A stretch of 64,000 nucleotides of DNA from Calliopum simillimum (taxonomy: Eukaryota; Arthropoda; Insecta; Diptera; Lauxaniidae). Shown here one piece after another: positions 983 through 63,172 of this stretch. The position numbers and the translations under genes are program-made. Location of the stretch: contig OX638368.1 of NCBI GenBank assembly GCA_951812925.1, forward strand, positions 4,278,001 to 4,342,000. The letters are read 5' to 3'. The first letter of the stretch is position 1, and every line of letters begins with the position of its first letter. The notes beneath the pieces were generated by a model. The model was given only the letters and a program-made list of their open reading frames with translations, made no database searches and was not told the DNA's origin.

Positions 983-2640
983 TATGTAAGCAATTGTTGT
1001 TAACATATTTTTGCGCAAATTTTATGGTAGCAACATTTACATATATATTAAGTAACTTATTGTTTTTTTCTTATTTTACTCTAGAAACATTTTCACAATT
1101 TCAACATCATTGCAAGTGCTTTACAACTAAGTACATTTCATTTAATATTTTTCAATGCATTTATTTCTCATTACTTCTATTTGTTGAATGGTTTTTTTGT
1201 TATTGTTGCAATATTGAACTGCAATTGTTGTGTAAATTGTATGCTATTACATAATTGATTTGTAACATCGCCTTCAGTTGCGCTCAAGTGTGTTGACAGC
1301 AACAACGTCAAAAGTTGCTTTAACTGCAATGCAACGCTGCTGTTGCTGCTGCTGTTACTATTTGCATAATAAATGCATAATAAATTGTTAACACACATGA
1401 CAACAACAAACAACAGTTTTAACAATAAATACAAAATAATTAAGTAATATTTGTTAAATTTTTTGTTGTTTGCTTACTTGATGTTTGTAAACATTGTTGC
1501 CTATTATTGGCAAAAAATGGTGACACAAATTGTTGCTATTGTTATAGTAAAAATTGTTATTAATTTTGTTGCCAAATATAAAGCAATTTGTGGGTCACAA
1601 AATACACACACATGTGTATATATTAAAGTCACGTGACATACATAATAACCGTAGTTACAAATATACTAAATCACACATTAATATAACATGCGACGCAAGC
1701 CAAACAAAAGATTTAGGCAACGAACTTGTTGTGTTTCGATATTTTAAAAGCTGCAGTACCAAAAAAAAAAAAAAAAAAAATTTGTTTTTGTTTACAATTA
1801 GTTAAGAATTTAAATTATAGGTTCATAGTTCATTTTAAATTTTTAAATTTCACCAAAAAAAAAAAACAGTTTTTTTTTTCTATTTTCCCTGTGCCGCCTG
1901 CAGCATTTTAAATTATGTTAATAAACTCTTAACGTAAAAATTTTACGAAAAAAGGCACACAGCAAAGTTACAAAAAAAAAGTAACAATTATTATGATTTC
2001 TGAACAATTAAGTACCTACCTATGACAAATAGAAAATTGTGTCTCAAAAGATAATATTGCAGAAAACGTTAGCAATTTTTCTAGCAGCAGCAGCGCCAAA
2101 GTGAATGGCAATATGACAGCCAAAGCAGCTAAATATAATAATTAGCAGTAACAGCAGCAGCAGCTTTAGCGATGACTATAACAAAGTATGGTTTTTTTTT
2201 CTTACAGATTTTTCTTAGATCTACACTCGCTTGCTGTTGCAGGTTTCTGGGCCAATAGGGCAAATGTTTGAGCAGCACAAAAAGGAAAAACACTGCTAAT
2301 GAAATATAGGAAAATTATTTATTTGTACGGCATGGTTTTTTTTTATCTGAATTTATTTAATTTCATGATTAAGTGTCTCTAAGCAACATTGTAATCCACT
2401 GATTATATTCATTAGCGCTGTTCTTCTGTATTTAGTTGCGTCCTTAAAAAGAAATAAATTTTTTCGTAGCTTGCAATGTTTATACTTTTAATATTGCTCA
2501 CAATCAAGTGGAAATTATTCCTATTTTGCTACTTTGCAAGTCTAAATGCTCCGGATCGTGAACACGGCTAATGTGTTTTTTTCTTTCGTAGAAATTTGTC
2601 AAGCTATTTAAATCTAGATTATAGATGTAATAATGCGAAA
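983..2640. other. unique AT-rich sequence without genes
   Basis: No coding signal was seen. It contains TTG/CAA-rich stretches around 1180-1560, GCA/CAG clusters near 1320-1365 and 2083-2165, and long A runs near 1760-1778. One copy of the dispersed GACTTAAG-type motif lies at 1703-1728. The texture is typical of fly introns or intergenic DNA. Confidence 0.6.
1703..1728 (+). repeat. dispersed GACTTAAG motif, copy 1 (diverged)
   Basis: Reads AACAAAA then GATTTAGGCAACGAACTTG, two mismatches from the core consensus GACTTAAGCAACRAACTTG shared by about 17 sites in this window. Confidence 0.6.
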
Positions 2641-2675
2641 ATCTTTATTGCATGATTTCAGACATTTTTTAAAAA

Positions 2676-2850
2676 CATATTTCATAGACATTGACTAAAA
2701 GAAAATTTTCCAATTCAGGGACCAAAAAATTTTAAAACATCAAAAACAAGATTAGTACTGAGTTAAGCATCAGAAAAGCTAATTACAATTTTTTGGACCC
2801 TGAATTGGGAAATTTTCTTTTGGTCAATGTCTATGATATTTAAAATATGG
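2676..2850. repeat. small fold-back (MITE-like) inverted repeat
   Basis: Two arms of about 55-60 bp face each other (2676-2735 and 2788-2850) around a spacer of about 52 bp. Both contain ATAGACATTGAC, an A-rich GAAAATTT block and AATTCAGGG, with few mismatches. No coding sequence is inside. It could be a solo MITE; no clear target duplication was seen. Confidence 0.7.
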
Positions 2851-2944
2851 CTAAAATCGTGCACTAAAAAGGTTCAAATTATTACGTCTATAATTTATTA
2901 TTTAAAATAAGTAGTTTCAAGTTCGCTTTCTAAGTCTTTCACGC

Positions 2945-3175
2945 AGAGAGAAGCTTTGACACAGTTTGACAATCACTATGTCAATACAATTTGAGGAGGA
3001 CTAAAGTAATTAGTCCTCTCCACAGTTTAAAAAGCACTGCGATTTCACAGTTTGAGAAGCACCGTATCAATTTATATTTTTTACAGTTCATAAAGCACTG
3101 CGTTGATACAGTTTGAAAGTTTGTGTATTGAATAAAACAGTAACACAGTTTTGAAGCTGTGTGTGCTAAATAAAA
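2945..3175. repeat. degenerate tandem repeat, ACAGTTTGAAAAGCACTG type
   Basis: Four or five imperfect units around 'cacagtttga..aagcactg' recur at roughly 50-60 bp spacing. A perfect 9-bp hairpin (GAGGACTAA at 2996-3004 pairing with TTAGTCCTC at 3010-3018) sits inside. It abuts the mariner derivative at 3191. Confidence 0.5.
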
Positions 3176-3190
3176 ATTTCAAAACACAAT

Positions 3191-3903
3191 ATATTTCTAT
3201 CCAAGGCAACACTAATGTCAATAGCTAAAATCTGGCAACACCATAATATAGTTTGACATTTTTTAGCATAAACGTACTCACAACGTTTTGATGTACAAGT
3301 GCTATTTGTTTTGTTTACAGTGAGTTAAGAAAATAAATTTTTCCATTGATAATTTAAGCGATTGATAAATTATGGAGTTTCCAACGAGAACAAATGTTTT
3401 TTACAACTAAGTGTTCATGCAAAATCAAACGTATTGGAGTGGAACTAATGCCCAAAGATGCTTCTATCTCACGGTATGTCACATGACGATCTTGCATTAT
3501 CAGTTCACGCACGGCATCAATGTTCTCTGGCACAACGGCCGTTTTTGAACGACCTTCACGGAATTCGTCTTTGAGCGAGCGCCGGCCACGATTGAATTCA
3601 TTAAACCAGTTTTTTACAGTGCTATAGAATGGTGCTTTATTGCCATACAAAGATTTAAGTTCAGCGATGCACTTTTGCCGTGATAATTGACGTCGAAAGT
3701 TGTGAAAAATGATCGCACGAAAATGTTCACGAGTTAATTCCATTTCTTTGTCAAATTGATTTTTTCAAGTCACTGTAAGCAACACAAATGATGGTCGTAC
3801 GTCAAAAGGTTCTGAGTACGTTTATGCTAAAAAATGTCAAACTTTATTATGGTGTTGCCAGATTTTAGCTATTGACATTAGTGTTGCCTAAGATAGAAAT
3901 ATA
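3191..3903 (-). mobile_element. mariner deletion derivative with long terminal inverted repeats
   Basis: Inverted terminal repeats of about 120-130 bp (about 3191-3321 and 3772-3903) match closely. Both contain GGCAACACTAATGTCAATAG and AGCATAAACGTACTCA. TA dinucleotides lie at both outer edges, as expected for Tc1/mariner insertion. Between the repeats is a single open frame for the N-terminal third of a mariner transposase. The length of about 713 bp, against about 1.3 kb for autonomous elements, shows that the catalytic part was deleted. Confidence 0.8.
3354..3743 (-). CDS. mariner transposase N-terminal DNA-binding domain only (truncated)
   Basis: A 129-codon open frame starts at an ATG and has no internal stop. 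It begins MELTREHFRAIIFHNFRR, includes RGRRSLKDEFREG, PENIDAVRELIMQDRHVTYR and EIEASLGISS, and ends ...NLSIA. This matches the paired helix-turn-helix (HTH_48 type) region of the mariner lineage often annotated as SETMAR-like in arthropods. The full protein is about 340-350 residues; the catalytic D,D34D part is absent. The frame is intact, so a DNA-binding-only peptide could in principle be made and could compete for the element's own ends. That is inference; there is no sign of host use. Confidence 0.7.
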   Translation of the reverse strand: MELTREHFRAIIFHNFRRQLSRQKCIAELKSLYGNKAPFYSTVKNWFNEFNRGRRSLKDEFREGRSKTAVVPENIDAVRELIMQDRHVTYREIEASLGISSTPIRLILHEHLVVKNICSRWKLHNLSIA

Positions 3904-3984
3904 TATAGCAGGCTACGTAATAAGAAATAATCAAGTTCTTTTTAGAAAACCTTTTGTAGAGCACTAAATTTGCAATCGAAATAT

Positions 3985-4162
3985 TTTATTAAAAAAAATA
4001 TCCGAGTTCACCCAGCTTTTGCTCAGATCCTACATGTATAGTTAGTCCTTAGTGCCTGAGTGAAATTTGGTTTGACTATCTCAAAAAACGCTTTCAGTAC
4101 AGCGTTTTGAACCTTTTGCTTGTATGGGAGGTGCCACGCCCTCTTGTCCAAATTCGCCCAAC
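3985..4162 (+). repeat. copy of composite repeat with GGAGGTGCCACGCCCTCTTG
   Basis: About 170 bp closely match the tandem units at 10640-11150: 'caaaaaacgctttcagtacagcg' context, then the GGAGGTGCCACGCCC block and 'gttcacccag'. It directly abuts the copia-like relic at 4163, so one probably inserted next to or into the other. Confidence 0.65.
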
Positions 4163-4947
4163 TTTGCTGCGTAGCGATAATGGTCGCGAATATTTAAGTT
4201 TTTAATTTTCAACAAATTTAGAGAAACTAGGAACCAAACGTCAATTTTCCGTGGAGTACACGCCTCAGCAATATGGCTTGGCGGAACAAGCAAATAAAAC
4301 TGTTGTATAAATGCTTCGTTGTACGTTGATTGAACTTGCTGAGTCATTATTGTGGCCAGAGCAGTCAACACAGCAGTTTATTTTCGTAATAGATGTAACT
4401 CTAAAGAATTGGATGGAAAAACTCCAATCGAGACTTGGAGTAGTATTAAACCTTCTGTTGCCTGGACAAACACCCGGGGAAATCAAAGTTTCAAGCCAAG
4501 GGTATTGAATGTGTCTTAACTGGATTTTGTTCAGAATCAAAAGTTTATAGGCTCTACAATACCAGCACAAAAAAACTTCACAAAAGTAGAGATGCAAAAT
4601 TCTTACAAGAGCATATAGAGATGTCCTTGTAAAATGAGTACGACTTTTTTACAAGGACTCAAGATGTGGGTAGTTGCGAAAGTCAAAATTTTGATACAGC
4701 AGATTTGGTGATCAATACTCATGGATTAGATAAAGTAAGTGATCTACCTTTGGAGAGAAATCAGCAACGAACAGTTATAGATGATATTTAAGTAGCGTCA
4801 ACTGTGATGGATAATGATCTGCAATGCAAAGTTTTGAGGTCAGGAAGATGCGTTTATAATAACTTATTAAAAGTCAAGTCAATGCAAAAAGAGTACGATT
4901 TTCTGATTGCAAAAGGCAAAACAATCCTCGTTTTGTTACTTGCGTGA
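4163..4947 (+). pseudogene. Ty1/copia-type gag-pol relic (integrase region)
   Basis: With several frameshifts and stops, the plus strand reads LRSDNGREYLS, then GTKRQFSVEYTPQQ and YGLAEQANKT (codon 15 of the latter region is followed by a stop). Further on it reads ECVLTGFCSESKVYRLYN, STKKLHKSRDAKFLQEH and KEYDFLIA. This is the order seen in copia integrase: the SDNG catalytic aspartate, the AE(R/Q)ANRT catalytic glutamate, then the GYRLY/SRDVKF segment joining integrase to reverse transcriptase. Protease, most of reverse transcriptase, RNase H and both LTRs are absent. It is an old, inactive fragment. Confidence 0.8.
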
Positions 4948-7029
4948 ACAATACAAATTTCATATTTATAAAAATAAAATTAATTAATTTATGCTTTGAA
5001 AAACTTTAATTCAGCCAAAATTAAAGTGTACGTTTTTTGAACATATAAATTTCTCTAGACTACTAAATTTAAATATATACATATTAATGCCAAATAATAA
5101 TTAACTCCCTGTAATCATTGCTAATTTATTTGTATACTGATATTTGACATATTTAAGTGAGTTATTCCCGTTTTCTATTAAGATGTACAGTTTTTATTCT
5201 AAAAATCAAAAAACCAAATTATGCGCTCAAAAACCGTTCATTTGCTCACTTGATTCGAAGAAAAAAATAAAACTTTAAGCTTAAAGAAACAATCAAAGAT
5301 TCATAATTATTGCAAAAAAAAAAATTTTAAAAAAAATTATTTAATAATTTGCAATCAACGCTTTTGCTTCCTCTTATTTTGTTTTTCTTACTTCTGTTTT
5401 TTTTTGGTTCTGTTTTACCTCAACTGCTTAAAAATTAGGAAATCGTTGTCATTAATTTTCTAGCGTGCGTCGTTCTTTAGTCGCAGCATCAAACTTTAAC
5501 TCAAACTTTTGCTTTGGGCAGCCAGCCAGCTAGCTAGCTCATCATGCCAAGTTACTTAGTCAGCTTAGAAGCAGCAGCAGCATTGGGCTTTAGGTAGCAT
5601 ACCGAAATGGGTCAACCAACATCAAAGCGCTTTAACAGCTTTTATTGTTGATAGTTTATCATTAAGCATTTTGTCGATGTTTATAAGCTTGATTTAGTTG
5701 CTCTTGCTTTTGCTGTCTGTCTTACCATAATGTTACAATATTGCTGTATTGTTACTACGTATATTATTGCTATTTTCATTATTATTATTCTCGTATCATT
5801 AATTGGGCGTCTATTAATTAAGTAAGTTCATTTAAGCGGAAATATTAATGTTCTTAACATGACTCACATTAGTTCAAAGAGATTTTTTCCATATGTTTTT
5901 TTTCTGTAATTTTAATTATATACCTTAGAGGTTTAGTTTTGGTAAAGGTTCTTCCTACTTTATATATAAAAAGAACAGAATTCATTGCATTAATTTTGTG
6001 GCTACATTCTTAAATTAGAGTGGTTCTTTTCAATAAATTTCTCCGACATGTATTAATATATCTGTGGAGTACGCTCTTCCGAAATCTTAATCATTTCTTG
6101 CTACAAAAAGGTAAAATTTATGAGAAAAACAAAATATTCGTGGTGTACAGCTATGCGAGAAAGAATTTTTTGTATTTTTTGTTTCTTACGCTGACCAACA
6201 ATATTAAGTGTGTAGTTAGTTTTTCATAATTTTTAAAGTGTTTCCAACCTGCATTTAATGCAAATTTGTTGTTACTATTTATCGCTTTGCAAAAAAAAAT
6301 CCATTTATGCGTATACATGCGCATACAAAAACAAAAGACTTAAGCAACAAACTTGCAAAAGTAAAACTTTTTTTCATATTCTAAGTATATGCGGAGAAAT
6401 TTTTAAATATATAATTAACTGTGTTAAAATATTAGCAATTGAAATTTACTTATGGCACTTAAGACTGTTTACATTACACGTATTGTACATGTATAGTTAA
6501 CCAATAGGTTTTCGCTACAATCTACATATTTTTATTGCTTGCATTAAATAGGTCACCAATATTACTTAGTTGCTACACTTTCAAGCTATTTTACAACATT
6601 GTATAGATAAATATATTTATTAAATGAAATGCTATTGATTAAGAAGTTGATAGAAAATTTTGCAAAAAAAAAGAGGAAAAAAAATAAAAATTAACGATAC
6701 CACTCCTAAAGCAATGCGCCCACAATGTAAGAAAGCATTTCAAATCGCTGTAGATTTAAGAATAACATAAATTTCTTATGCCAATGTACTTAAGATTACA
6801 AAAAAAAAAAAAAAATAAAAAAAAAAACAAAAAATATTAAACAGTTTCCTTAAACCTTTCATGCCCGAGCTTCAGCTTCATCATGTACTAAAGATATAGC
6901 TTTTACTACAGTAAATGTACGAGTAAGTTAGATAGGGTCAAAATTTAGCCATTCTATTTTAAAAAATAGAAGGACTATTAAAAATTATGTCAGCATAATT
7001 TTTTTTTCGTTCCAGAAGAATTTGGATTC
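4948..7029. other. unique AT-rich sequence without genes
   Basis: No coding signal. It contains CAG/GCA-rich patches near 5480-5585 and A runs near 6790-6830. One near-consensus copy of the dispersed GACTTAAG motif lies at 6331-6355. Short open frames at 6020-6229 and 6258-6500 look like chance. Confidence 0.55.
6329..6355 (+). repeat. dispersed GACTTAAG motif, copy 2 (perfect core)
   Basis: Contains the core GACTTAAGCAACAAACTTG exactly, preceded by AAACAAAA. Confidence 0.8.
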
Positions 7030-7196
7030 TTCTAAGGGCCTATTTTGGCAAAAAAAAAACATGTTTTTCTCACAAGTTTTTTCGTCACAAAATGGAAACC
7101 CAAATTTGCTTTAAAAATAAATTCTAAATTGCAAAAATTATGGCATTAAAAAAATTATACTTTTTTTTATACATTTATCTAATTTTTTGCAGTATA

Positions 7197-7905
7197 CTAG
7201 GTGTACAAATATGAAACCGGTAATTTTTATTTAAAAAAACACGTTTATTTTGCGAACATGGTTCCAAATTTAATCTTCAAAGTAATTCCCCTCGCTAGCT
7301 ACACATCTTTCCCATCTTTCAGGCAATTTATGGATTCCTCGCCAAAAAAATTTTTCGTTTTTTGAGGCTATCCATTCATCGAGCCATTTTTGCACTTCCT
7401 CGTAAGAATTGAAGCACGAATCGTTGAGTGCGTGTCCCATCAATGAAAACAAATAGTAATCGGACGGCACCAGGTCCAGTGAGTACGGCGGGTGGGGCAG
7501 GGGCTCCCAGTTGTACGATTCTACCAAGTTTTTATTGACCGCTGCTCGATGTGGCGATGCGTTGTCATCTTGGAATACAATTTTATCATGGCGAAGTTGA
7601 AATTCGGGCCTCTTCTGACGTATATCACGGTTCAAAGCGATCAATTGTTGATGGTAGCGTGCACCAGTAACTGTTTCACCTGGTTTTAGTAGCTCATACC
7701 AAATAACACCACGCTGATCCCAGAAAATACACAGCATTGTCTTTCGGCCGAAGCGATTTGGTCTTGGCGTTGATTTGGGTCGTTGGCCGGGGCTCAAATA
7801 TGATTTTTTTCGTTTGGGATTGTTGAAATAAATCCACTTTTCATCGCCAGCGATGATTCGATGAAGAAAACCTTTTCTGTTTTTTAAATGGAAACAGGGT
7901 AATTT
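7197..7905 (-). mobile_element. mariner element, 5' truncated
   Basis: The downstream end is intact: a TA at 7195-7196, then CTAGGTGTACAAATATGAAA, a typical mariner terminal repeat. The open transposase reading begins only about half way along the protein near 7880, and no matching left terminus is visible beyond it. The element is thus a half copy of a Mos1-like mariner. Confidence 0.75.
7270..7880 (-). pseudogene. mariner transposase C-terminal half, D,D34D catalytic domain intact
   Basis: An uninterrupted reading of about 200 codons starts near 7880 (RKGFLHRIIAGDEKWIYF) and ends in the family's usual CVASEGNYFE end. The three catalytic acidic residues are visible: D in AGDEKW, D in QDDNASPH and D in LVPSDYYLF, with exactly 34 residues between the last two. 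The relative is the Mos1/mauritiana side of mariner (HKLPERWE, SYEEVQKW). The N-terminal DNA-binding domains, about 150 residues, are missing, so it should not bind its ends. The lack of stops suggests a fairly recent insertion. Confidence 0.8.
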
Positions 7906-8250
7906 TATATAAAACTAGAATACATTTTTTTTTTTTGTATTTTAAATTACTGCATCAAAGTTCAACGCACTTCACGATGGCTCGTTATTGATTTTAGACC
8001 CATAGTTTCTTGGGCAAAGTTTTTTAGAATTTGCCATAGATTTTTTTGTGGCTATATTCTTTGCCAAATTTTTGCCTCCCAAACAAATTGAACCGACCTA
8101 ATGTACATACATATAACTTTTTAATGCAAAAATTTTTCCAAGAACATATTATTTATTTTTAAAGCAAATTTGTGCGTCCATTCTATGAAAAAAAAAGTTA
8201 TAAGCAAAAAACATTTTTTTTGCCAAAATGGGCAAACAAAAGTGCTCCAT

Positions 8251-9990
8251 TAGTTTTGAGATGGTGTGGCGATGAATCTAAATTTCGAACTTTTCTAATA
8301 GATAATCATAGTGAATGGTAGTGGCACTGAATGGTAACGAAAGTAAAATATAAGAATTAAAATGGAAAATATGCAGTGCAAAAAATTTGAGTTCTTTCAT
8401 ATTTATGTAATATTGCACTATTATTTCAAAACGGCCATTAAAAAACAAGGAGATTATTATAAAAAATCTTTGGCCAAAAGACTTCATACAATAAATACGC
8501 TCTAAATAGCATCGCAATGGAAACATTGAGGCTTAAGAGCGAACACAATTTTCTGTTGAATATCATGACGTATGAGTTACATTAAATTGAAGGAAAATAT
8601 AAAAATGTTCCAAGCAAAACTATATTCTCTTAGCAACCAACAATAAAATCTGGGATTATTATACAAAAACTGTATACAAAATACTAAAACTAAATGGTTT
8701 CGAATGACGTAAGATATTGAGGTTTAACTCTGAGCAGAAAATATCTCAAATAAAGCTTGTCTAAAAATATTCAAGTTTATTGAAATACTAAATTAGCATT
8801 GTGTCACTATGAAAAACGCTTGGGTATAACAGAGTTAAGCGAAACTCAAGCAACAAGTGAACAGCATAAGCTACGCGACTTACTCGCGCAACTGCAACAC
8901 ACGGCTGTTTGCAAATCAACAACACTACAGCAACAACAACAGCATCATCAATAACAGCCATAACAAATAGCAATAATTTAACAAACAAAACCAAATCAAT
9001 ATAATCAACAAACAACAACACAAACGCCAACAACTAGTGACCAACTTTAGAGACAACACGCGAGCAAATACAACAGTAAAATAAATAAAACACAGACTGA
9101 CCAAACCCTCAAGTTACATACACCAATCTGGACGAGGAGCACACAAGTTACAATACTCATGCGAAATGATCACTTCAAAAAAAATCAAAAAAAAAAAAAA
9201 TGTTAAGACCGCTAATGTGTGTCCCTAAGACGATGTCTGCTGATGTGAGAATTGTTGCTACAACTTGTGCCAACAACACAGCAAATAAAAAACACCGCAA
9301 GACAAGCAGCAGCAACTGCGCATGCAGCTTAAGAGTTGCAGCAAAAAGAACGTGCGCCATAGAATACAACGCAGCAGCGAAAGAAGCAAAAATCAATGCT
9401 TAGCATAGGCATTCTTACGAGTACTACATTGTATATGCTGCTGTTTGCCAGTAAATAGGCGCGGAAGTGAACGACTTAGTGCAGTGGGTGAGCAAGTGTT
9501 ACAAGTTCAGATATGTAGCTTTGAGGAAATACTTGTTAAAATCAGTTGAAAAATTTGATTCAATTGTGATAAGCCAATTTCAGTTTTTTATTTTATGGTT
9601 ACGTTTTGATTTTAAGCCAATTTGGGCAATAAAAAAGATATTTTTTTCTAATAATGTGAGTAGATATTTTGTTATTTCGATTTCTAGTTCAAGAGGGCGC
9701 ACAGCGCTGTCATCCCATTTCCACAGCTTTAATTCGACTTTTATGAAATTTATTATTGCTTTCAAAATTGCAATTATTTTTGAAATGCAAGAAATAGAAA
9801 AAAAAAAGGTATTTATGTTTCGGGCTTTGTTGGGTTTTGACCAACAAGCTCATTTGTCCTTGTGTACATATCAAAATCACGAAATAAACAGTATTCACAC
9901 GTCTTTTTGCAAGGTAGGGAGTAGAGCCCAATATGCAGCCCCCATAAATACGCCTCTGGTTTTAGGCTATATGTAAAACTAATGTCTGAA
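8251..9990. other. sequence without recognised gene; CAA/CAG-rich block
   Basis: Positions 8870-9400 are rich in CAA, AAC and GCA trinucleotides. A 169-codon open frame at 9467-9976 has no recognisable domain and biased, low-complexity composition. I see no coding support for it. Positions 8251-8780 show nothing notable. Confidence 0.5.
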
Positions 9991-10149
9991 CAGCATAAAA
10001 ATTGGCCTGGTTACAAAATAAATACCCTACACTGCAGTATTTTGAAGCTTTTGTTTATATGAGAGATGCCACGCCCTTTTGCGCTTATAATTCGTAGTAT
10101 TTATGTATACTAGAATCGCCAAGTGGTCAAAATTCGGCCACAAATGTAT

Positions 10150-10565
10150 AAAATTAATTTGGTAATTTTTTGACACTTTCTGTAATTTTTTGACACTTTA
10201 AGTACTTTTTTGGCTATTTGGTACTTTTTTGACACTTTTAGTACTTTTTTGCTATTTGGTACTTTTTCACACTTTTAGTACTTTTTTGGATATTTTGTAC
10301 TTTTTTGACACCTTTAGTACTTTTTTGGCTATTTGGTAGTTTTTTGACACTTTTAGTACTTTTTTGCTATTTGGTACTTTTTGACACCTTTAGTACTTTT
10401 TTGGCAATTTAGTACTTTTTTGACACTTTTAGTACATTTTTGCTATTTGGTACTTTTTGACACCTTTAGTACTTTTTTGCTATTTGGTACTTTTTTGACA
10501 CTTTTAATACTTTTTTGGTATTTGGTACCTTTTTGACAACTTCAGCACTTTTTTTGCTATTTGGT
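10150..10565. repeat. minisatellite, unit about 40 bp (TAGTACTTTTTTG... GGTACTTTTTTGACAC)
   Basis: About ten imperfect units alternate 'tagtacttttttg-ctattt' with 'ggtacttttttgacactttt'. The half-unit is about 20 bp. It is plainly repetitive throughout with small indels. Confidence 0.9.
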
Positions 10566-10639
10566 ACGAAATAGAACTAGTAAGGGTGTAAAATTTGGCC
10601 TGGCCAAACATTAAATACCCTACACTGCAGTATTTTTAA

Positions 10640-19900: not shown

Positions 19901-19909
19901 TCGCATCAG

Positions 19910-44469: not shown

Positions 44470-44475
44470 ATGTTT

Positions 44476-47599: not shown

Positions 47600-47659
47600 T
47601 AATATATTTTATAAATATCGTTAAATTTACCTTTAAATTTGTTCATTATCATTTGTTGT

Positions 47660-47696: not shown

Positions 47697-47725
47697 TAAA
47701 GAAATTTTTTCAAAAATAAGTAAGG

Positions 47726-48608: not shown

Positions 48609-48610
48609 TA

Positions 48611-49847: not shown

Positions 49848-49889
49848 TACAGACACAAAAGAAAATAAATGGAATAAACAGCCTTATAT

Positions 49890-50090
49890 ACGTTTTGATA
49901 CTGAATCCTACTGCATTCTCAGAATTGTCTATGTACCTGCACGATTTCATGATATCCTTGCTTGAAGTTGGAGAAAACGTTCTTCCAGTCTTATGATATC
50001 GTAAAGCCACATTTTATACCTTCAAACTTTTCCTATAGCACTCTTACTTTCCGAGTTATGATCTTTTGAAGGGCAGCTGTTTGCTCCACA
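49890..50090. repeat. degenerate half copy of fold-back family F
   Basis: Shares CTGAATCC, 'atccttg.ttgaagt', 'agaaaacg' and 'ttttccgagttatgat'-like words, in order, with 27590-27790. Strongly diverged. Confidence 0.35.
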
Positions 50091-53116: not shown

Positions 53117-53545
53117 TATTGAAACTTAATATGTAATTGTTTAAAGATTGCTTATAAAAATAAGCTATCAACATTGCTTATAAACATTGTCTTTAAGCAT
53201 TGCTTATAAACATTGCTTTTAAATTTTTGTATAGAAACTTTGCTTATAACTATTATATAACTGTAACGCAATTTTCATGAAATATTTGGAAAAATGTTTC
53301 TAAACATTGTTTTTATGCACTGTATATAAACATAGTCTATAAACATTGTTCATAAAAATTGTTTATAAACATTTTATTTTAAGATTATTTATAAACATTT
53401 GCTATCAACATTGCTTATAAACATTGTCTCTGTTTATAAACATTGCTTACAAATTTTTGTATACAAACATTGTTGAAAAACTTGCTCATTAGAAACTGTA
53501 ACGCATTTTTCATAAAAAATTTCCAAAAATGTTTGTATATAATTT
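53117..53545. repeat. two-level satellite, block 2
   Basis: Same short and long units as 51065-51925. The segment 53255-53535 aligns nearly base for base with 51318-51600, with small differences. Confidence 0.85.
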
Positions 53546-55504
53546 TTTAAAGAAACTTCACAACTTATTGTAAGGGGCTCAGCAAATCATTTCATTCATT
53601 TTAAGCGTAATAATTAAGAGCAGCCCATCTCCCAACTCTACAAAAAAAGATTCATAATGTACAACAGTGTTAACAGCGGCACATATGAAGTATAGAAACA
53701 AAAACAAATAAAAACTTACTAATTAAAAGTAAACAAAATGATTTGAAAATAAACAAAAATTATCGAAAGGGAAATTCCAATTGCGTAAACATTAATTATT
53801 TAAATTAATATAATAAATAATAATAAAAAAACAGAAATCAGGAAAAACCAAGTAATTGCTTAAATTAAATAAAACTACAGCAACAATCATTAAACTCTAC
53901 ACTTTCAGGCCGTGCAGGGAAAATATGAGGGGGTGTTGGCTTTCAATGAAATTGATTTACAGCGCTAAAGCAAAAACCAACAAAAAAATTATGGCAACAG
54001 CAACTTCAGCAATAAATCCTGATAAAACTCGAGTAATTCAATCAAACAAAATCGAACTGTAACAAAATGATTACAACAAAATCACAAAAAACTTAAAAAT
54101 CTGGCTGTTGCAACACGGAAATCATTTCACTTGCATTCACTTGCTACCATTTTTTTTTATAATTTTGGCTTTTGTTGTAGTTTGCGCTATTGTTGTTGTT
54201 GTAATTGCATAAAACCAATTACTGGCACAAAAATTGCACTTTTAAAAATCAAATTGAAATAAAAAAAAAAAGAAAACGAAAATTTCGTTTGTAAATCAAA
54301 ACGAAAATTACAGTGTGTCGAACATTCATTGCAGAGGTCAGTTGGTAAATTTTAATAATTTCATTTTTCCGCAAGAGGGCGTGGCAATTTTATGTGGTGT
54401 AAATTACTTATGGCAGCAATGGGTTTTGAGATTTCAACTTTTATCAATTGCTGCTGCATGTAACTTGCGCTTTCACGACGTTTTTCGATTTTATCTATAA
54501 ATATATATAAATAGAGTGTCAAAATTATCGTAAAAATATGACACATCTAATTAATTTAATCACGATTTTTAGATCTTGAACTGTCAATTTAATAGCAATA
54601 AAAACAACGACAGCAAAGCAAATGAAAAACTCACGTTCACTTAATTAAGTTGCGCTTTTATTAATGAAAAGTTAGCATGCGTTTGCGTAATCATCGACAA
54701 ATCATAAAAAATCAAGTGTAAATTATTGTTGCTGCTGTCGACATTTCATTAACAATAAAAGTGTAATTTAAAGCTTGCGTTTGTATTTTTACTTTTCACT
54801 GCAACAGCGCTAACTTTTTGAAAATTCAGCTGAAACTCATCACATTCTCATGCTATTGAAGATGACAATTGAAAGAAAGTGTCAGACGCGTTTGCTCTCA
54901 GCGTAACAGCGGAAGTTCACTTAATTGATTGGACACGTTTTGTCGTTATTTAGTTTAATTTTTTTGTTGGTTTCTGGCTGTTGTTGTTTGTACAACGTTA
55001 ATTGAGAGCGAAATCTTTGTGTGCAATGCTCATTGGTAATAATAATAAAAGAAAGTAAGTTCGTTGCTTAAGTCTTTAGTTTTGTCTCACGTGCAAATGG
55101 CATTAGTTTGAAAGCATGCAGCATATTGCAGCGTTTACAGCAAGAGAACTCTAGTTACTTTTATTTTGTAGCTGCAGCAGCTTTCTAAATTTCTTATACT
55201 TATATCTTAAGAAATAGAGCAAATACTTCTGTTGCTTAATTTTGATGTTTTTAAGTAATATTGGAATTTATGCGTGTATCGAAAAATTTTAATTTATGGC
55301 TTTCTTTCGTTAGCCAGGGTGTTATTCGTTGGCGTCCAGGCTTCACTACAAAATTTATGTTTCCCAAGAAAACACAGCTTTTCCAAACGTTCTAATTGAC
55401 TTTATTTTGCATTTGGTACGACGCAATAAGATTGTGAATCCGCCTATAATGAAATCACAGGTGATTATCAAAAACATCCATAAAAAAATCCAAAAAAAAT
55501 ATGT
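53546..55504. other. sequence without genes; one motif copy
   Basis: AT-rich with TTG patches near 54190-54210. Dispersed motif at 55056-55084. A frame at 53856-54062 has no recognised domain. Confidence 0.45.
55056..55084 (-). repeat. dispersed GACTTAAG motif, copy 13
   Basis: The minus strand reads AAAACTAAA then GACTTAAGCAACGAACTTA, one mismatch at the end. Confidence 0.8.
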
Positions 55505-55836
55505 ATATCCAAAAATTTTTGGATGTTTTTTTTTTAAGTTTTTACTTTTGGATGTTTTTTATTTAAATGTTTTTTGGATGTTTTTTTTGATGTTTTTATT
55601 TTTGGATGTTTTTCATTGGATGTTTTAGTTTTTGGTTGTTTTTTATGTTTTTGTTTTTGGAAGTTTTTTTTTGGATATTTTTGTTGTTTTGGATGTTATT
55701 CATTGGATGTTTTAGTTTTCGGATATTTTTTTTTGGATGTTTTTTTTTGGATGTTTTTATTTTTAGATGTTTTTTTTTGGATGCTTTTTAATTTTTGGAT
55801 GTTATTTATTGGATATTTTAGTTTTGGATGTTTTTG
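55505..55836. repeat. minisatellite (TTTTTTGGATG)n
   Basis: About 25 imperfect units of 10-15 bp around 'ttttttggatgttttt', with some longer units containing 'cattggatgttttag'. Open frames here (55574-55837) are repeat artefacts. Confidence 0.9.
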
Positions 55837-56079
55837 AAATAACACAAGAAACATTTTTTTGGAACTTCTTAGCTTATTATTTACTATTTTTATAGGTCGT
55901 TTTGATCCTTTTTTCCAAAAACCGAGATCTACTGGGTTAAAAATTTTAGAGTAATACTCTACTCTTTCACTTGTTGTCCCCAAATGCAAGAACTGCTCAA
56001 AAATTCAGAATAATGAGTAAAAAATGTACAAAAAATTCAATCTCAAACAGAGTTATATTTTCTGACAAAAAAATTCTAC

Positions 56080-56425
56080 ATATTTTAGATTCTTATACGA
56101 TTCATATTTATATGACAAGAAAAGCAGCATAATACATAAGTTCCATTAACGGTTTAAGTTGTAAATAATATAATTTTTTAAAAATACAGCTTTTGTTCGA
56201 TTCGCAAATTTTGTTATAAAAGAGTGACTGTAATGTGATGTCAAAATACTTATGCCTCCAGATATTTGTACATTTTGTTCGTTTTTTTTTTCTTTTTGTT
56301 AAAGAGTGATTATTTAAAAATTTATGTTATATACAACTTAAACCGTTTATGAAACTTATATATTATGCTACTTTTTTTGTTACACAAATATACAATATAT
56401 CGTATAAGACTCTAAATAGTTATGC
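56080..56425. mobile_element. fold-back element of about 345 bp
   Basis: Arms of about 110 bp (about 56080-56190 and 56311-56425) are inverted copies. They contain TCTTATACGAT, AGCATAATA.ATAAGTT and AACGGTTTAAGTTGTA. The spacer of about 120 bp has no gene. MITE-like; target duplication not determined. Confidence 0.75.
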
Positions 56426-57803
56426 CTATGATTCTATCTCAAAATTTAGATGTGATGGACTAAAACGGATCCTCAAATTCATATTTTTTTGCGGTGTTGT
56501 CTTATCTTTTTCAAATATGCATAACTTTAAACAAGTATCTAAATCTAAAACTGTATGAAAAAATAATACATTTGCTTCCAAGCACATAATATTCATATTT
56601 TTGTAATGTAGCAAAGGCGCACTTATTGCTGCTGCTGTTGGTGTTGGCATTTCCAACCGCATGCTATATAATTTAATGCATGCCAAAGTATTCTTCCCGT
56701 TCCTATGGACATTGATGTCTATTGCAGTTTTGCAAAGTGTAGTTAACAATTTTAATACAAAATAAAGAATTTAATATCAAACGAAGGACCACCACAACTA
56801 TTGTAGCAGCAGCAGCAATATCTTCGATTTTACCTCAACTTAGGCAACAACAATAAACAACAATTTAAATCTCTTTGATTAAGCTTTTTATTTAACTTCA
56901 AGTCAACTGTATGCTATTATTCTAATGTTTTTCTTGCCACTTTCTTTTGAAGCTGCTGCTGCTTCTGCTGCCTCTTGTTGGCTCATTTTCAACTCTGTAT
57001 GATTATCTACTACGTAAGGCATTAGAAGCTTTGATAGAAATAATCATAAGTTTTCCAAATAATAGCAACAACTGAAAAGAAAACTTCTTAAAGAAAAAAT
57101 ACAACAACAACAGCACAGTAAAAGAAGCAAAATAACTTTACATTCATGGTGGTCAAAGATGTTTTCTTTGTAAGCGCGTGCTTTTTGTCTGCTGCACAGC
57201 GCTTAAATTTAATAACACATTATTAGAGTGTCGTTTATTTGCTGAAAATTATCGAACTTTCATTATACAAAAATATGCGTGGTATTAGACAAATTTGTGT
57301 ATGTATTATCTGAATTGTTTACATATTTGACAACAAGTTTTTTACACTTAAAGTATGCATAAAATGGCTTTAGCTCATTGCTTGAATTTTCGCAATCTAA
57401 GTAATTGTAAACTTCTAGAAAAATCTGCAGACTACCTTAGTTTATGCTCTATATACCTACAAAAAACACTAAACACAGTTTTTTATAACACAAACAGAGG
57501 CTTTGCTGATATTTCACCTAAGCTTCAACATTTTAGTCGAAAAATCCAATATCGCAACCAGCTTGTTTAAGAGCGTTGCGTATGATAAAGCAATTAAGTA
57601 TTGCTTTGATTACAGTGCAACATATTACAATTCTGGTTTGATTGCAGTGCAATAAGTTTGAAGTTTCGTCTTAAAATGTTGCCATAGTATCAATGCATAA
57701 AAACTCAGCTTTTTGTAGCATAAACAAGGACTTTACTGGTTTTTATTTCTAGAAAAATGTCGAAAATTATAGAAAAAGTCGAAGAGCACTAAATACTTTT
57801 TAA
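56426..57803. other. sequence without genes
   Basis: GCA/CTG patches near 56625-56640, 56805-56820 and 56950-56975. AT-rich otherwise. Confidence 0.45.
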
Positions 57804-58443
57804 TCTATATATATATATTGTAATGAATGTTTGTGTGTCTGTTTGTCTGTCTGTATGTTCCTTTCAGATTCCCAAATGGCTGGACAGATCAACGTGAAAA
57901 TTTATGTTTATAAGTTTTTGGATATGCCGCATATTTATGCATCATTATTTTTTTCGGGTTTTTTTTTCACCCAATGGTCACCTAGCATGTCGGAACCAAA
58001 CATTTTTTTTTCGTTTTTTCGTGTTTTCTACGCGTTTAATGACTTTTTACGAAAAACGTTTTTTTCGCTCAACGGACTCTCCTTGTATGGCGGAACCAAA
58101 AACCAAGGGTATATCTTGGATGTTGGAAACAAAATTTTATAAAATTTTTTTTTCGTATTTTTCGTGCTTCCAAAAAAAAATTATTTATCATATCTCTGAA
58201 AATATTTAACGAACATAGATTTTATTTGGCTTATGTATTGGACAAATAATGTCCAAGCGAAAAATGGCCGGTCCACGTCCTTAAAAAACGTCATATCTCT
58301 GAAACTATTGAACGCACTTAGATGATATTTGGTACGTAAATAAATTGCATCGGCAAAATTTTCATCCTTTTATTTAATTTAATTGGAAATGCCCCGGCCT
58401 CTGTAGAAGAGAAGGTGTAGCGACACACACCGGGAAATGCTAG
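57804..58443 (+). mobile_element. non-autonomous Helitron, full copy
   Basis: Starts with A, then TCTATATATATATATTGTAA and 'tgtttgtgtgtctgtttgtctg'. It ends CCGGGAAATGCTAG followed by T, with 5' TC and 3' CTAG between A and T as in Helitrons. The interior has 'ttttcgtgttttctacgcg' and 'catatctctgaaactatt.aacg' modules shared with the copies at 28168-28640 and 24210. There is no Rep/helicase coding sequence, so it is non-autonomous. About 640 bp. Confidence 0.8.
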
Positions 58444-58946
58444 TTAAAAATATCGGAAAATATTTGTAAAAAAAATTTCGCGAAGAATTTTGAAATTCCA
58501 AATTAATAAAAAAAATTATTTACTTTCAAAATTTTACCAGCTTTATTACGTTAATCTCTTGAAAGCAACACTTAAAACAACATTATTTTCATTTGATTGC
58601 TAAACCAAAATTACGACAAAATTTATTTTGAAATGTTGGGGCATTCTCTTACTAACACTTTTATTTTTCAATAATTCAAGCAAAAACAAGCAAAGTAAAA
58701 ACAAACTGCAATTACCGACCCCAGCCAGACTTCCTGACAAAACGCGTCGTCACACAAATTGAATTTGAACGTGAAAATGAAAATATTCAATAACACAGCA
58801 AAAGAAAAAAAAAGCACCAACAACAAAAACAACAACAAATTTGAGCTGAAAAAATAACAGGCCAATCAAGAAAGAAACAAACCACAATAAAAAATTAAGC
58901 AAAAAAATAATAATAAACAAACAAATAAACTTGCATACAAGTAAGC

Positions 58947-58974
58947 AAAACAAAAGACTTCAGCGACAAACTTG
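58947..58974 (+). repeat. dispersed GACTTAAG motif, copy 14
   Basis: Reads AAAACAAAA then GACTTCAGCGACAAACTTG, two mismatches. Confidence 0.75.
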
Positions 58975-59760
58975 ATATTTTTTCTTCTTGTTTTTTTTTT
59001 TGGGAATAATTTTTGTGATTTCCTACATATTTTTAATGCTTCGTTGCACTTGTCCAAATGCAGGCAAGGGAGAGAGAGACGTAAAGAGACGGCTACTAAT
59101 GCAAATACCACCACTGCCACTAAACGCGAAACAGTCGATAGTTTCAAATTTTCTGCAACAGCATGGCCAACCAGATTGTTCGAAATTTCCGTTTTTTCTT
59201 TCGTTCCTTCGTTTTGCTGTTGTTGCACTATGGCTGTTGTTGTAAATTGCAATTTACAAAATTTGAATGTTAAGGTTTTGCATTGATCTTTGCCTCGGCA
59301 GCAGCAGCACCATTCCAGCACAAATAGCAAAAACACTTGCGCTGCCATTAAATTCAGTTGTGTTGAGGCTGCATCCGCTTACAGTGAATACGCAAAGCGA
59401 GAAATAAAAACACGACGACAACACTAATGAAGTGAATTGGCAGCAAGCAGCGGAAAAAAGTGAAGGTAAAAAGTAAATAAATTCAAAAAAAAAAAAAAAA
59501 AAATAAAAAAGAAATGGAAAGTAATTAAAAAACAAAAATATATAATTACTGTTGCGTCATAGAAAAGCAAAATTAACTTTTTATTTTTTCAAACATACTA
59601 ATTGGAGTAAAAACAACATGGCACTCGTTGGTAATCGTTGGCTCAAGCTAAATTTTATGCTAAAACAAAAAGTTTGCTTACAAAAAAGGAAGTCAGAGTA
59701 AGCCAACGACATGAGTAGCCACATGATATTGCATAGTCTGTACTTAAAAAATCTTAGCAA

Positions 59761-59785
59761 GAAACAAAGACTTTAGCACTACAAG
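59761..59785 (+). repeat. dispersed GACTTAAG motif, copy 15 (weak)
   Basis: Reads GAAACAAA then GACTTTAGCACTACAAG, aligned only in part. It lies 36 bp before the LINE target duplication. Confidence 0.35.
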
Positions 59786-59821
59786 AAGTACTTAATTTTT
59801 TATTTATTGTTAGGCAGAAAT

Positions 59822-60451
59822 TTTAGGAAATGAAAAGGCAGATCTCTCAGCAAAAACAGGAGCTCTTTTAGAAGATCAACACATTAAAATTCCAGCACCG
59901 CTTCAACATTTCTTCTCTTTAAAGAACGCTCAAATGTTCTCAGTAGCGAATAGACGCTGGGAACAATCCCCAACCAGTGCTATAACAAAGTATTTTTGGC
60001 CTTATTTTCACAAAGCAGATTTTTCCAAATATTTACTATCTCTGACGAGGAGCGAGTGCAGCCTGCTGACAAGAGTTGTGACTGGTCATTGTCTAATTGG
60101 TCATCATGCCTTTAGACTGGGCATAGTCTCCAACAACTGGTGCAGAAACTGTCACGAGCCTGAGGAAGATGAAACAATTGAACACCTTTTATGTCTTTGT
60201 CCTGCTCTTGCAAGAACTAGACTGAAATGCTTTGGTCGGCCATTTTTTAATTCCCTAAAAGAACTCACTAAAATTCACCTAAGTGACATTAAAAGATTCG
60301 CAGTGCTTACAGGATCCTTCAGTTTGGACAAACACCATATTGAAAGGACCAGAGTTTATGAATAGACGTTAATATGAGAGTTTGTGGTATCACTATGGAC
60401 CCTTGCGGTCTATGTGTGGCAATATTGCCGCCACCCTAACCTAACCTAACC
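59822..60451 (+). pseudogene. 5'-truncated non-LTR retrotransposon: RNase H end and C-terminal zinc-knuckle region
   Basis: The open frame begins GNEKADLSAKTGALL (end of an RNase H domain) and continues through RSECSLLTRVVTGHCLIGHH, NWCRNCHEPEEDETIEHLLC with a C-x2-C...H-x4-C knuckle, to a stop near 60365. A 3' untranslated part ends in CCTAACCTAACCTAACC. Flanks carry a target duplication: TAGGCAGAAATTTTA (59811) and TAGGCAGAATTTAT (60452). The structure is a dead-on-arrival LINE insertion of about 630 bp. RNase H plus this C-terminal pattern fits the I/LOA/R1-type group; the exact clade is not fixed. No stop interrupts the retained frame, so it is fairly young. Confidence 0.85.
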
Positions 60452-60703
60452 TAGGCAGAATTTATGGTTACCAGTATGTTCACTGAGAAAAATGTGGTCA
60501 ATATTACAAAGTTGAGATACCTTTACTTAAATGGATGATAAATTGGAAAGTAAGAATACGTATGGAAAAAAAATAATTACGCTATTTCGCTGATTTCAAA
60601 TCTGGAACTGTAGCGGTTGTAAAAGGTTGAGTAAATAGAAATTTCAGAAAAATGAGCCAAGTTTAAGCAACTTTATTTTGTTTATCAAAATTACTTTATT
60701 GAG

Positions 60704-60985
60704 TCAAATATTTTCCATGTTATTGGCCACTTCTCGCCAACTTTTGGGCAAAACCATAATACCGTCGTTAAAAAATGTCTGTGTTGTCTGCACGAAAAAC
60801 TCGGAAACGACCTTTTTGCAATTATCTAGGAAATGCAATTTTACGCCATAAAGACAATTCTGCAACGAGCAAAACACATGGTAATTCAAAGGTGCAAGGT
60901 CTGAGCAATATGGTGAATGCATTAAAACTTCCCAGCCAAGCTCTCTTAGTTTTTGGTGGGGCAACAAAGAAGTATTAGTATAAGA
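60704..60985 (-). pseudogene. mariner transposase C-terminal fragment
   Basis: The minus strand reads KLRELGWEVLMHSPYCSDLA, PLNYHVFCSLQNCLYGV and FFNDGIMVLPKSWREVANNM. It corresponds to the third-aspartate block and tail ('PPYSPDLAPSDYHLFRSLQN...') of a mariner lineage. The catalytic D of PSDYH is N here, and other substitutions are present. The partner N-terminal fragment lies at 61412-61690. Confidence 0.75.
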
Positions 60986-60994
60986 AATTGATTT

Positions 60995-61085
60995 TTGATT
61001 TTTTTTGTATTTTCTACGCGTTTCATGACTTTTTACGACATTTTAGTGGAAACATTTTTTTTCACCCATGGGTCTCCTCTCCGAA
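60995..61085 (-). repeat. Helitron-internal fragment inserted in mariner relic
   Basis: Contains 'tttctacgcgtttcatgactttttacgacattttagtgg' and 'cccatgggtctcctct', shared with 14620-14770, 28385-28460 and 57985-58090. Confidence 0.6.
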
Positions 61086-61411
61086 GTTTTATTTGAAAAT
61101 GAAAAAATAAGCGACAAAATACAAACTTTATCAATACCTACTGAAAATTGCTTAAATACAGCTTTGCAGGAATACTCCTTTCATTACTTCGACCATCGAA
61201 CAGCTTCCAAACGTAAAAATATTTAACTTTCTTTGAGTGTTTCATTCAATCTAGTTAATTGTTGACAGTACAGTAGTTTTAAATTAATCGTTTACCCACG
61301 CGAAAGCAGTTCTTAGTACAAAGGTCCCATGCAATTCTACCAAATACTAAGCAAAACCTTACTTGGCGTCAGTTATGGCTTTGCAATCAGTAAGCAATCT
61401 GTGCAATGCGG

Positions 61412-61690
61412 TCAGTAAGATTTTTTTTTCACTTTTGCAATGTCGCGATTGCTTATGTGTCGATCTTCCTCCACCTTTATAAGAATTCCGTCAACTTTTT
61501 CGGTGCATGGTCGAGCACATTTAGGTGCGTCTTTTATATCAAAACTTCCAGACCATTTTCCAACTGTCCTTTCCGATAAAATATCTACTCCATAATGTGC
61601 ACAAATTTTTCTGTGAGTCTTCGCGGCCGTATAGTATTTTTCGGAGAAATAAAGTAAGTAAAATGTAACAAATCTTTTTCGATTTTGCAC
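61412..61690 (-). pseudogene. mariner transposase N-terminal fragment
   Basis: The frame starts MQNRKRFVTFYLLYFSEKYY and includes AAKTHRKICAHYGVDILSER and WSGSFDIKDAPKCARPCTE, the helix-turn-helix region and 'F.LKDAPRSGRP' linker of mariner. It continues to DRHISNRDIAK and then a stop. The middle of the protein, with the first two catalytic aspartates, is lost between this piece and 60985, where other sequence including a Helitron-like piece has accumulated. No terminal repeats were recognised. Confidence 0.7.
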
Positions 61691-62840
61691 TCAATTTAGT
61701 GACATTAAAACAATTGAATAATGAAGAAATTTCAATCAATAAAATATATTTATGATTTTGAAAGATGTCAACTATTTTTAGCAACAAAGATTTGGCAGAT
61801 CACAACAGTACTTGCAGTGCTACCGTTCTTTAAACTTTGCTATTTCACTTTTATGAACTATTTTTTTACTCAACTTTATGTTTATTAATTTCATAATTCG
61901 CATGATGTGTTCTTTTGCTATGTATACTACTTTCAGAGAGATTTTCTTTTAGTGTAAGAATAAAAATCGAAAACAAAAAAAGCACTAAGCTAACATTCAT
62001 CGACGCTGTTTTTTTTTTTTTTGTTAAGTTTTCTAAGCATTTTTCTCTTTTGTTTTTTTCGCTTTTTCTACTGAAACAAAACACATTTTTCTTTCATTCT
62101 TTATATTTTTTTCAACTTTTTTAATTTATTTTTATTAACATTAGCTGGCCGGAAGCGGCCGCAGTTGCTATTTAATTATTATACTTTAATGCATACACTT
62201 TATTTAGTAAGTTGAGGTGAAATTTATTAGCAATAATGGCATTATAAATCAAAACTTAACTAAGGAAATAGCCTGAACATACAGTTTTATGCATTTATGT
62301 TAATGCTTAAAAAAAATTGCATTAAAAATACTTAAGAAAAATTTTAATCATAAGCAACATCACTAGATTACTTAAAATGGTTAAAATTTGTATGAAAAAA
62401 TTTTAAGTTGCTTGGAATTTTATTCTCAGAGCTCTAAGATTTTGCTTTTGATGTAAATGAGCACCATATAAGTTTTGGTTCATTTACGAGAAAATTTGAT
62501 AGTTCCAAATCAGTTTAAGAAGTGAAACATGGTATAATTTTTTATTTCAAAATTGAAGCAGTTGAACTTTTTATATGAACTTTGAACTGCTTGATTAAAG
62601 TCTGCAATTTATTTCTCCATCAGTTTTGTAGTTTTGGAGGTATTGCTTGTTCCATTTTTATCTCAATTCGAATTTAGCAGCTCAAAATCCACATACTTAT
62701 ATATGAGCTTGGCGGCCATTTTAGTTACAAAAAGTTCCTATTAACATACGTTTTTCTAATTTTTTTAGAATTCTCGTTAAAATTCCTTTAATTTAATATT
62801 TGTCACATAAATTTTTTGGATTGGGATCAGCACACCGCCG

Positions 62841-62855
62841 CCCCCCCCCCCCCCC
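62841..62855. repeat. C15 homopolymer
   Basis: Fifteen C residues preceded by CCGCCG, in otherwise AT-rich sequence. Confidence 0.95.
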
Positions 62856-62966
62856 AGGAACAATTTTTTGGTAGTCTAGGCCACCTCTATCACCTCCTTT
62901 GTAATCTTAAGCGATACACCCTATAAAACAAAAAACTATTTAAAGCTTTTTGAATTTGTATTACCT

Positions 62967-62996
62967 AAAAACAAAAGATTTAAGCTAGAAACTTTT
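62967..62996 (+). repeat. dispersed GACTTAAG motif, copy 16 (diverged)
   Basis: Reads AAAACAAAA then GATTTAAGCTAGAAACTTTTG. Confidence 0.6.
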
Positions 62997-63144
62997 GTAT
63001 AGTCCAGTAAATTTGTCAAAAAGTATAAGTGTTTATACTTAAATCATAACTTTACTTAAGTAATATTTATTTCTTAATGAAATTGTGTAGAAAAATCAGC
63101 AACAGTTGTTTTTTACATCGCCAAAAGAAAGAAAATCACCGCAG

Positions 63145-63172
63145 CAAGTTTGTTGCTTAAGTCTTTTGTTTC
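63145..63172 (-). repeat. dispersed GACTTAAG motif, copy 17 (perfect core)
   Basis: The minus strand reads AAACAAAA then GACTTAAGCAACAAACTTG exactly, the same core as copy 2, 57 kb away. Confidence 0.85.

Follow-up and report, generated by a model that had tools for sequence, protein, structure and literature searches.

A 28-bp motif clustered across a giant intron of a conserved dipteran gene, a candidate site of a multi-zinc-finger protein

Introduction

Insect genome organisation depends on several zinc-finger proteins that recognise long sites, most of which were found in Drosophila. A vertebrate example of such a site is that of REST/NRSF (RE1), which is bound by a polydactyl zinc-finger protein, is present in roughly a thousand or more genomic copies and marks a set of genes. 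The motif described here resembles RE1 by analogy only, in its length, its putative polydactyl binder and its copy number, whereas its letters and clade are different.

Among the described insect systems, Su(Hw) is a 12-finger C2H2 protein with a site of 20–26 bp that contains an AT-rich module, as stated in the accessible parts of PMC5825117 and PMC2374998. The gypsy insulator, in which 12 Su(Hw) sites are clustered within 340 bp (PMC2374998, accessible part), shares with the present locus a homotypic cluster of long sites in AT-rich surroundings; in contrast to gypsy, the copies described here lie mostly kilobases apart, outside masked transposon frames, and have other letters. The locus also resembles the Pita/ZIPIC/CTCF class of long-site C2H2 architectural proteins (for Pita, PMC7983404, in part), a likeness at the level of the class and not of letters, the Pita and ZIPIC motifs being given as logos only in the sections available. 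Arrays of 4–5 Pita and ZIPIC sites were used in insulator assays, according to the available sections of PMC4317163. Another long site in insects is that of Kr-h1, an 8-finger protein (PMC9092015, in part), whose 30-bp binding site (KBS) starts with GACCTA (PMC6818763, in part).

Here we describe a 28-bp motif, AAAACRAAAGACTTAAGCAACRAACTTR, that recurs in a 64-kb stretch of fly DNA (the window, placed at C1:4278001-4342000). We propose that it is probably the double-stranded DNA site of a single multi-zinc-finger protein of the C2H2 type, with about nine fingers.

Results

The motif was the top-ranked recurrent word in an unguided spaced-word search of the unmasked window sequence, and PWM scans of the window resolved 15 high-scoring copies together with two weak partial ones. 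When the 19-bp core was searched with up to three mismatches, 13 matches were found against 0.07 expected (100 shuffles; largest shuffle, 1), and with the core PWM the weakest of the 15 clear sites scored 20.5 bits while the next best sequence in the window reached 13.1. Six of these sites are on the plus strand and nine on the minus strand. Both core match and PWM identified the sites at 1701..1728 (+), 6328..6355 (+), which carries the exact consensus and was also recovered as an exact 28-mer, 16023..16050 (-), 55056..55083 (-) and 58947..58974 (+). The remaining sites form five neighbouring pairs no more than 180 bp apart from start to start (32, 57, 110, 149 and 177 bp). Two are tandem pairs on the minus strand, 36103..36130 with 36160..36187 (57 bp) and 38049..38076 with 38159..38186 (110 bp), and a convergent pair, 44442..44469 (+) and 44474..44501 (-), is separated by a gap of 4 bp; all six were detected by core match and PWM. 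In the other two pairs one member was detected by PWM only, namely 25296..25323 (-), paired with 25445..25472 (+; core match and PWM), and 62968..62995 (+), convergent with 63145..63172 (-; core match and PWM), which has a perfect core. The original prediction that many copies are paired at short distance holds, with a closeness of p ~2e-4 relative to uniform placement. It had counted 17 sites, of which these 15 were located within a few bases, but the other two are partial and score far lower: 25401..25419 (-) consists of the middle of the motif without the A-rich arm (core score 11.4, middle score 20.1), and 59760..59777 (+) of the left part only (left-arm score 11.1).

The copies had also been described as lying outside recognised transposons and sharing no longer flanks, and both statements are borne out. 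Thirteen of the 15 sites have no base in the mask of repeats and transposon ORFs, and 44442+ and 44474- entered the mask solely through self-alignment of the inverted pair, no alignment being present there other than that of 44430-44513 with its own reverse complement. Mean pairwise identity among the 15 sites is 0.78 within the 28 bp and drops to 0.285 on one side and 0.308 on the other in the 28-bp flanks next to them, the level of random window segments (0.292). In a Pfam search of ten chosen frames, three had mariner-type domains, one had a weak zf-RVT below the cut-off and six had no match, and a tRNA search returned 0. For the mariner frame, 898 relatives were found; of the 120 that were listed, the few with names are arthropods or carry generic SETMAR labels.

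All 15 sites align without a gap over 28 columns, 10 of which are invariant and distributed along the entire length, and the information content of the site is ~32-35 bits. Substitutions gather in certain columns (p ~1.5e-4), a pattern unlike that of decayed repeats. Neighbouring sites are no closer in sequence than sites far apart. Of the three possible phases, one shows the highest conservation (p 0.02-0.04), a weak signal that could be chance and that is weakly consistent with fingers stepping by 3 bp.

We then scanned the window's own 690-Mb assembly with the reversed pattern as a control. The 19-bp core, allowing up to two mismatches, gave 1,416 matches compared with 26 for the control, divided 680/736 between the strands, and the exact 28-mer occurred 91 times (42/49 by strand) compared with 0, with 17-20 copies on each of the large contigs C1-C5. 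At 24 of 30 genomic loci, a search with the core only regained the A-rich left arm. The other six core matches carry a different left arm of the TTTC or AATC type, so that recognition of the core may not always require the A-rich arm. Such a swap, like the partial copies at 25401 and 59760, would be expected of separable modules, and it raises an alternative in which at least two smaller transcription factors sit side by side at a fixed spacing, as in an enhanceosome, with no polydactyl protein. We consider such a composite element unlikely, given the gapless 28 columns at all 15 window sites, the invariant positions along the full length and the abundance of exact 28-mers.

Rather than being scattered uniformly with transposon flanks, the outcome set beforehand as contrary to the original prediction, the sites are clustered, and the 30 loci compared have no long flanks in common. 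Among the 100 perfect cores listed, 39 adjacent gaps were of 100 kb or less, compared with 2.7 in simulation, and for the 91 exact 28-mers the corresponding numbers were 20 and 1.3. Each large contig also has one stretch of 28-56 Mb that is empty of the exact 28-mer. These data bear on a second alternative, in which the copies were spread by, and are remnants of, a mobile element that is old or very short (the ends of a MITE, or a transposon fragment targeted by zinc fingers). The high genomic copy number and one locus with TTTC-type copies in tandem (L019/L020) would fit such a remnant, but the window flanks are dissimilar, the longest extension between different places among the 30 loci is 99 bp at 77% and lies at the motif, decay is column-specific, clustering is strong, and the empty stretches, taken alone and apart from the clustering, would be odd for a free spreader. 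Neither sequence common beyond the core nor uniform decay, by which a MITE or SINE would be recognised, was found in the window or at the 30 loci, and we regard this origin as very improbable.

A homeodomain match was found within 200 kb of 7 of 57 site groups compared with 4% in simulation, and within 100 kb of 3 of 57 compared with 2%, both without control for gene density; for this reason we do not build on a homeobox link.

To place the window in its genomic context, we used tblastn with ten homologous proteins, seven of which hit exons flanking the window on either side and three the upstream exon only. The whole window (1..64000) is enclosed in a single minus-strand intron of some 100.8 kb at ~C1:4268057-4368825, where the limits are the ends of the alignments and not splice sites. 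The host is a dipteran gene that is conserved but uncharacterised. A matrix built from the 15 window sites located 12 further sites in 200 kb of neighbouring sequence, giving a local cluster of 27 sites (14 plus, 13 minus) in 159 kb, all between C1:4268482 and 4427332. The cluster occupies the ~100-kb intron and the upstream sequence of the host gene, and the motif is absent from the flanks of 30 and 75 kb examined beside it by matrix scan.

The motif could alternatively be the form that the Su(Hw) insulator site takes in this fly, a reading that we hold to be still more improbable than a mobile origin. The two are similar in length, the Su(Hw) site having ~26 nt in three modules (PMC5825117, accessible part), as well as in their A/T-rich arm, and on its opposite strand the motif has GTTGC followed by CTTT, in common with Su(Hw) sites (PMC2374998, accessible part). 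However, the consensus TGT(TA)GC(AC)TACTTTT from that part of the paper matches none of the 15 sites, and the 10 places in the window that fit it with up to two mismatches are all elsewhere; 5.5 would be expected, and a count of 10 is attained in 3 of 100 shuffles. Endogenous Su(Hw) sites are, by the same accessible text, mostly isolated, in contrast to the 27 sites in 159 kb here.

Kr-h1 was considered because its KBS begins with GACCTA, but by eye the rest of the 30-mer, GACCTACGCTAACGCTAAATAGAG as printed in the accessible part of PMC6818763, does not fit the motif. A search of literature full text with the letters of the motif, both strands and truncations included, listed two Drosophila papers with a 10-letter piece (PMC5871330 and PMC4667240), which serves there as a probe in FISH and as a PCR primer; motifs present only in figures would escape such a search. 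No motif given in letters in the accessible portions of the long-motif, insulator and Kr-h1 literature matches. An IMG/VR scan gave 0 exact matches.

Weakest of all, and scarcely credible, is a single-stranded RNA element (for splicing, a hairpin or an RNA-binding site) within the intron transcript: the window does lie inside one intron, the two members of the convergent pair 44442/44474 could fold back on each other as a hairpin and 4 of the 15 sites are more stable than the shuffle mean on the opposite strand (lowest -6.0 versus -2.5 kcal/mol), but orientations are mixed in the cluster and genome-wide, 12 of the 15 sites are at 0 kcal/mol on the motif strand with only one below the shuffle mean, Rfam gave 0 matches at the gathering threshold, and neither a stable fold nor a consistent strand was observed.

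Discussion

The original prediction had left the choice between a zinc-finger or insulator protein site and an RNA element. We favour a double-stranded DNA site because the strands are balanced, there is no consistent RNA fold, the alignment is gapless and the constraint is column-specific, and the mixed strands and lack of a consistent fold disfavour the RNA element. A site of more than 20 bp, gapless and with column-specific constraint, is what a polydactyl C2H2 protein would read, and the binder may well be a zinc-finger protein with an insulator or architectural role. The motif can be divided into nine triplets, AAA ACR AAA GAC TTA AGC AAC RAA CTT, followed by R, with one finger predicted for each triplet. 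The genome has at least 160 C2H2-array matches, with 150 of 931 candidates scored; when four of these arrays were compared with the motif using a crude recognition code, none stood out.

The gene-scale clusters are probably used for chromatin architecture or domain regulation. Many bound copies along the regulatory span of a gene would cooperate as architectural anchors, which may loop or insulate inside the domain or tether intron enhancers to the promoter; alternatively, the protein may be a domain-wide repressor. The sequence evidence here fits architecture, repression and activation alike. More tentatively, and with rather less confidence than we place in the DNA site itself, the motif may belong to an unrecorded architectural or repressor system of flies, in which a nine-finger protein marks gene domains via dozens of 28-bp sites, near-equal to one another and strewn across giant introns and upstream DNA up to the neighbouring genes.

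A site that is legible from raw sequence and forms gene-scale clusters opens a direct route to a long-site protein that may be new, enabling a pull-down of the factor, a computed list of target genes, and tests of insulation, tethering or repression. It also provides a first lead on the regulation of a conserved, uncharacterised dipteran gene with a ~100-kb intron. If such an unrecorded system exists, the loci under its control would form a discrete list, given by the clusters and obtainable from the sequence alone.

A long and sharply defined motif in the window

In the window, 13 matches to the core GACTTAAGCAACRAACTTG were found at up to three mismatches, compared with 0.07 in shuffled sequence. 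A matrix built from the core matches and then iterated gave 15 sites, each of 28 bp; an A-run at 8188, the sixteenth match above the threshold of the iterated matrix, was excluded from the site set. Because the weakest site has a core score of 20.5 while the best other window sequence reaches 13.1, the site class is sharply set apart. Fifteen of the 17 copies initially listed have a clear matrix match, whereas 25403 (minus strand) and 59761 (plus strand) are merely partial copies. The consensus, AAAACRAAAGACTTAAGCAACRAACTTR, carries about 32 bits over the 15 sites and 35 bits over a set of 33 sites, collected using matrices trained on the window sites. A reader-independent search of the unmasked window sequence for 14-letter words that recur, three positions being left free, returned the motif in its top-ranking rows; among the 80 rows listed of 634, a few include stray positions beyond the 15 sites, and a local repeat at 48.6–49.5 kb forms the sole other family.

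The reading of the window copies as a repeat family was rejected. Mean pairwise identity is 0.78 within the 28 bp but 0.285 and 0.308 in the adjoining 28-bp flanks, compared with 0.292 for random window segments, bearing out the earlier observation that the copies have no longer flanks in common. The departures from consensus (56 of 420 cells) are uneven over columns, 10 of which are invariant (p ~1.5e-4 if decay were uniform). Close neighbours (identity 0.771) are no more alike than the remaining pairs (0.783), and the site pairs therefore do not come from local duplication. Five of the 14 gaps between adjacent sites are 180 bp or less (p ~2e-4), with tandem, convergent, and divergent arrangements all present.

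Repeats were noted elsewhere in the window. A word like GGGGCTANTGTGGACA, apparently a MITE-like or local repeat, occurs six times at 48620–49466 in both orientations, with a looser copy at 38517. Tandem arrays of the 13-bp unit TGTTTATAAACAT occupy 51111–51919 and 53142–53427, with portions up to 86% alike between the two blocks. The blocks 4001–4165, 10628–11099, 24214–24560, and 41886–42383 align mutually within two groups and include tandem arrays of GGTGCCACGCCC-like words. Mariner-type transposase remnants (Pfam) lie at 3357–3764, 7273–7914, and 34731–35174, the second being a frame with 96% identity to an unnamed protein with the source tag lgn.

Copies across the genome

We scanned the whole assembly (690,472,685 bp in 334 contigs, with the window at C1:4278001-4342000 and C1–C5 denoting the five large contigs). 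The core at up to two mismatches gave 680 forward and 736 reverse matches, compared with 16 and 10 for the reversed core pattern; nine fall in the window, a density some 70 times the mean of the genome. The exact 28-mer has 91 copies (42 and 49 on the two strands; control 0 and 0), distributed over C1–C5 as 17, 18, 20, 19, and 17, and is absent from all other contigs of the scanned assembly. Thirty perfect-core loci were excised, two inside the window and four more from its cluster. Although the query was the core only, 24 of the 30 have the A-rich arm; the other six have an alternative left arm of TTTC or AATC type. BLAST among these loci (E ≤1e-5, low complexity filtered; alignments touching the motif and its 60-bp surroundings) gave short, motif-centred alignments, of which the longest joining separate places measures 99 bp (77%), with the overlapping L019 and L020 excluded. 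Perfect cores with the different left arm TTTCNAAAA were seen at L019/L020 (C1:38756605-38759668), L008, L027, and L028, and are possibly a second site class; L019/L020 holds two such copies separated by 45 bp, plus a weaker third one 300–350 bp off.

The copies are clustered. Among the 100 perfect cores listed, which extend to C3:86.66 Mb, 39 adjacent gaps are 100 kb or less, compared with 2.7 simulated, and steps of 200 kb yield nine groups of three or more. The 91 exact 28-mers show 20 such gaps against 1.3 simulated. The largest stretch free of exact copies is 28–56 Mb long on each of C1–C5, presumably pericentromeric DNA.

The cluster of the window and its host gene

Across 264 contiguous kb around the window, 27 sites exceed 26 bits, all within C1:4268482-4427332 (14 and 13 by strand), with one additional match at 16.0; column-permuted matrices produced, over 30 runs, a single match above 20 bits. 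Under uniform placement, so short a span has p ~5e-5, the region borders having been picked after the genome core matches were seen. Ten homologous proteins were aligned to the locus, and seven (from Musca, Ceratitis, Bactrocera oleae, Lucilia cuprina, Teleopsis, Drosophila simulans, and Eupeodes) align to two minus-strand coding stretches, ~4370283-4368826 and 4268056-4267601, while three match the former alone. The window thus lies entirely within an intron of ~100.8 kb. Per 10 kb, the intron carries 1.98 sites and the 57 kb upstream of it 1.23, and the matrix scan found no sites in the flanks of 29.6 kb and 74.7 kb. Relatives of the host gene, labelled in databases as uncharacterised or with mutually conflicting names, occur in numerous flies and mosquitoes, and its exon shows at most 47% identity over at least 70% of its length in the best 120 of 125 matches. 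This level of identity suggests that the source is a fly, probably a schizophoran, and distant from the species sampled. By eye, we take the frames flanking the locus to resemble 14-3-3, eIF3m, unc-45, and Fip1. Long frames at C1:4375338-4380735 (inside the site span, upstream of the host gene) and C1:4433756-4438990 (beyond it) were read by eye as BEL/Pao-like retrotransposons.

A candidate zinc-finger site

The motif is real, genome-wide, clustered, and long, and its sequence properties resemble those of a DNA-binding site. The motif strand folds at 0 kcal/mol at 12 of 15 sites, and the opposite strand is more stable than the mean of its own shuffles at four of 15. The balanced strands, lack of a consistent fold, gapless length, and column-confined tolerance point to a protein that would read 28 bp of duplex. 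Such long reading is limited to few protein classes, among them C2H2 arrays, with three bases per finger. One of the three phases is more conserved (0.956 compared with 0.82–0.88, p 0.02–0.04), agreeing weakly with finger steps. This phase cuts the motif into AAA ACR AAA GAC TTA AGC AAC RAA CTT, with several GNN triplets, which zinc fingers favour, on the opposite strand. Querying the assembly with a nine-finger C2H2 array returned at least 160 matches; in a crude recognition test of four of them, none showed a clear gain in fit over shuffled versions of its fingers. Large tandem groups of array matches on C5 (53.35–53.82, 81.0–81.9, and 107.99–108.14 Mb) are perhaps a lineage-specific gene expansion.

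Among known long sites, those of Pita and ZIPIC are given as logos (PMC4317163) and may be compatible by letters. Su(Hw) is the nearest known system in style, with a site of ~26 nt in three modules bound by 12 fingers (PMC5825117, PMC2374998); its endogenous sites are reported to be mostly isolated, and none of the 15 sites matches its consensus as given in PMC2374998. Ten weak matches to this consensus lie in other parts of the window, compared with 5.5 expected. The 30-mer for Kr-h1 in PMC6818763 does not fit the motif by eye.

Most likely, judging from these features, the motif is a new member among polydactyl zinc-finger sites, with a striking gene-scale distribution. Because the clusters are gene-wide, the sites may act cooperatively or additively across a regulatory domain, where they could serve in architecture or tethering, or in domain repression.
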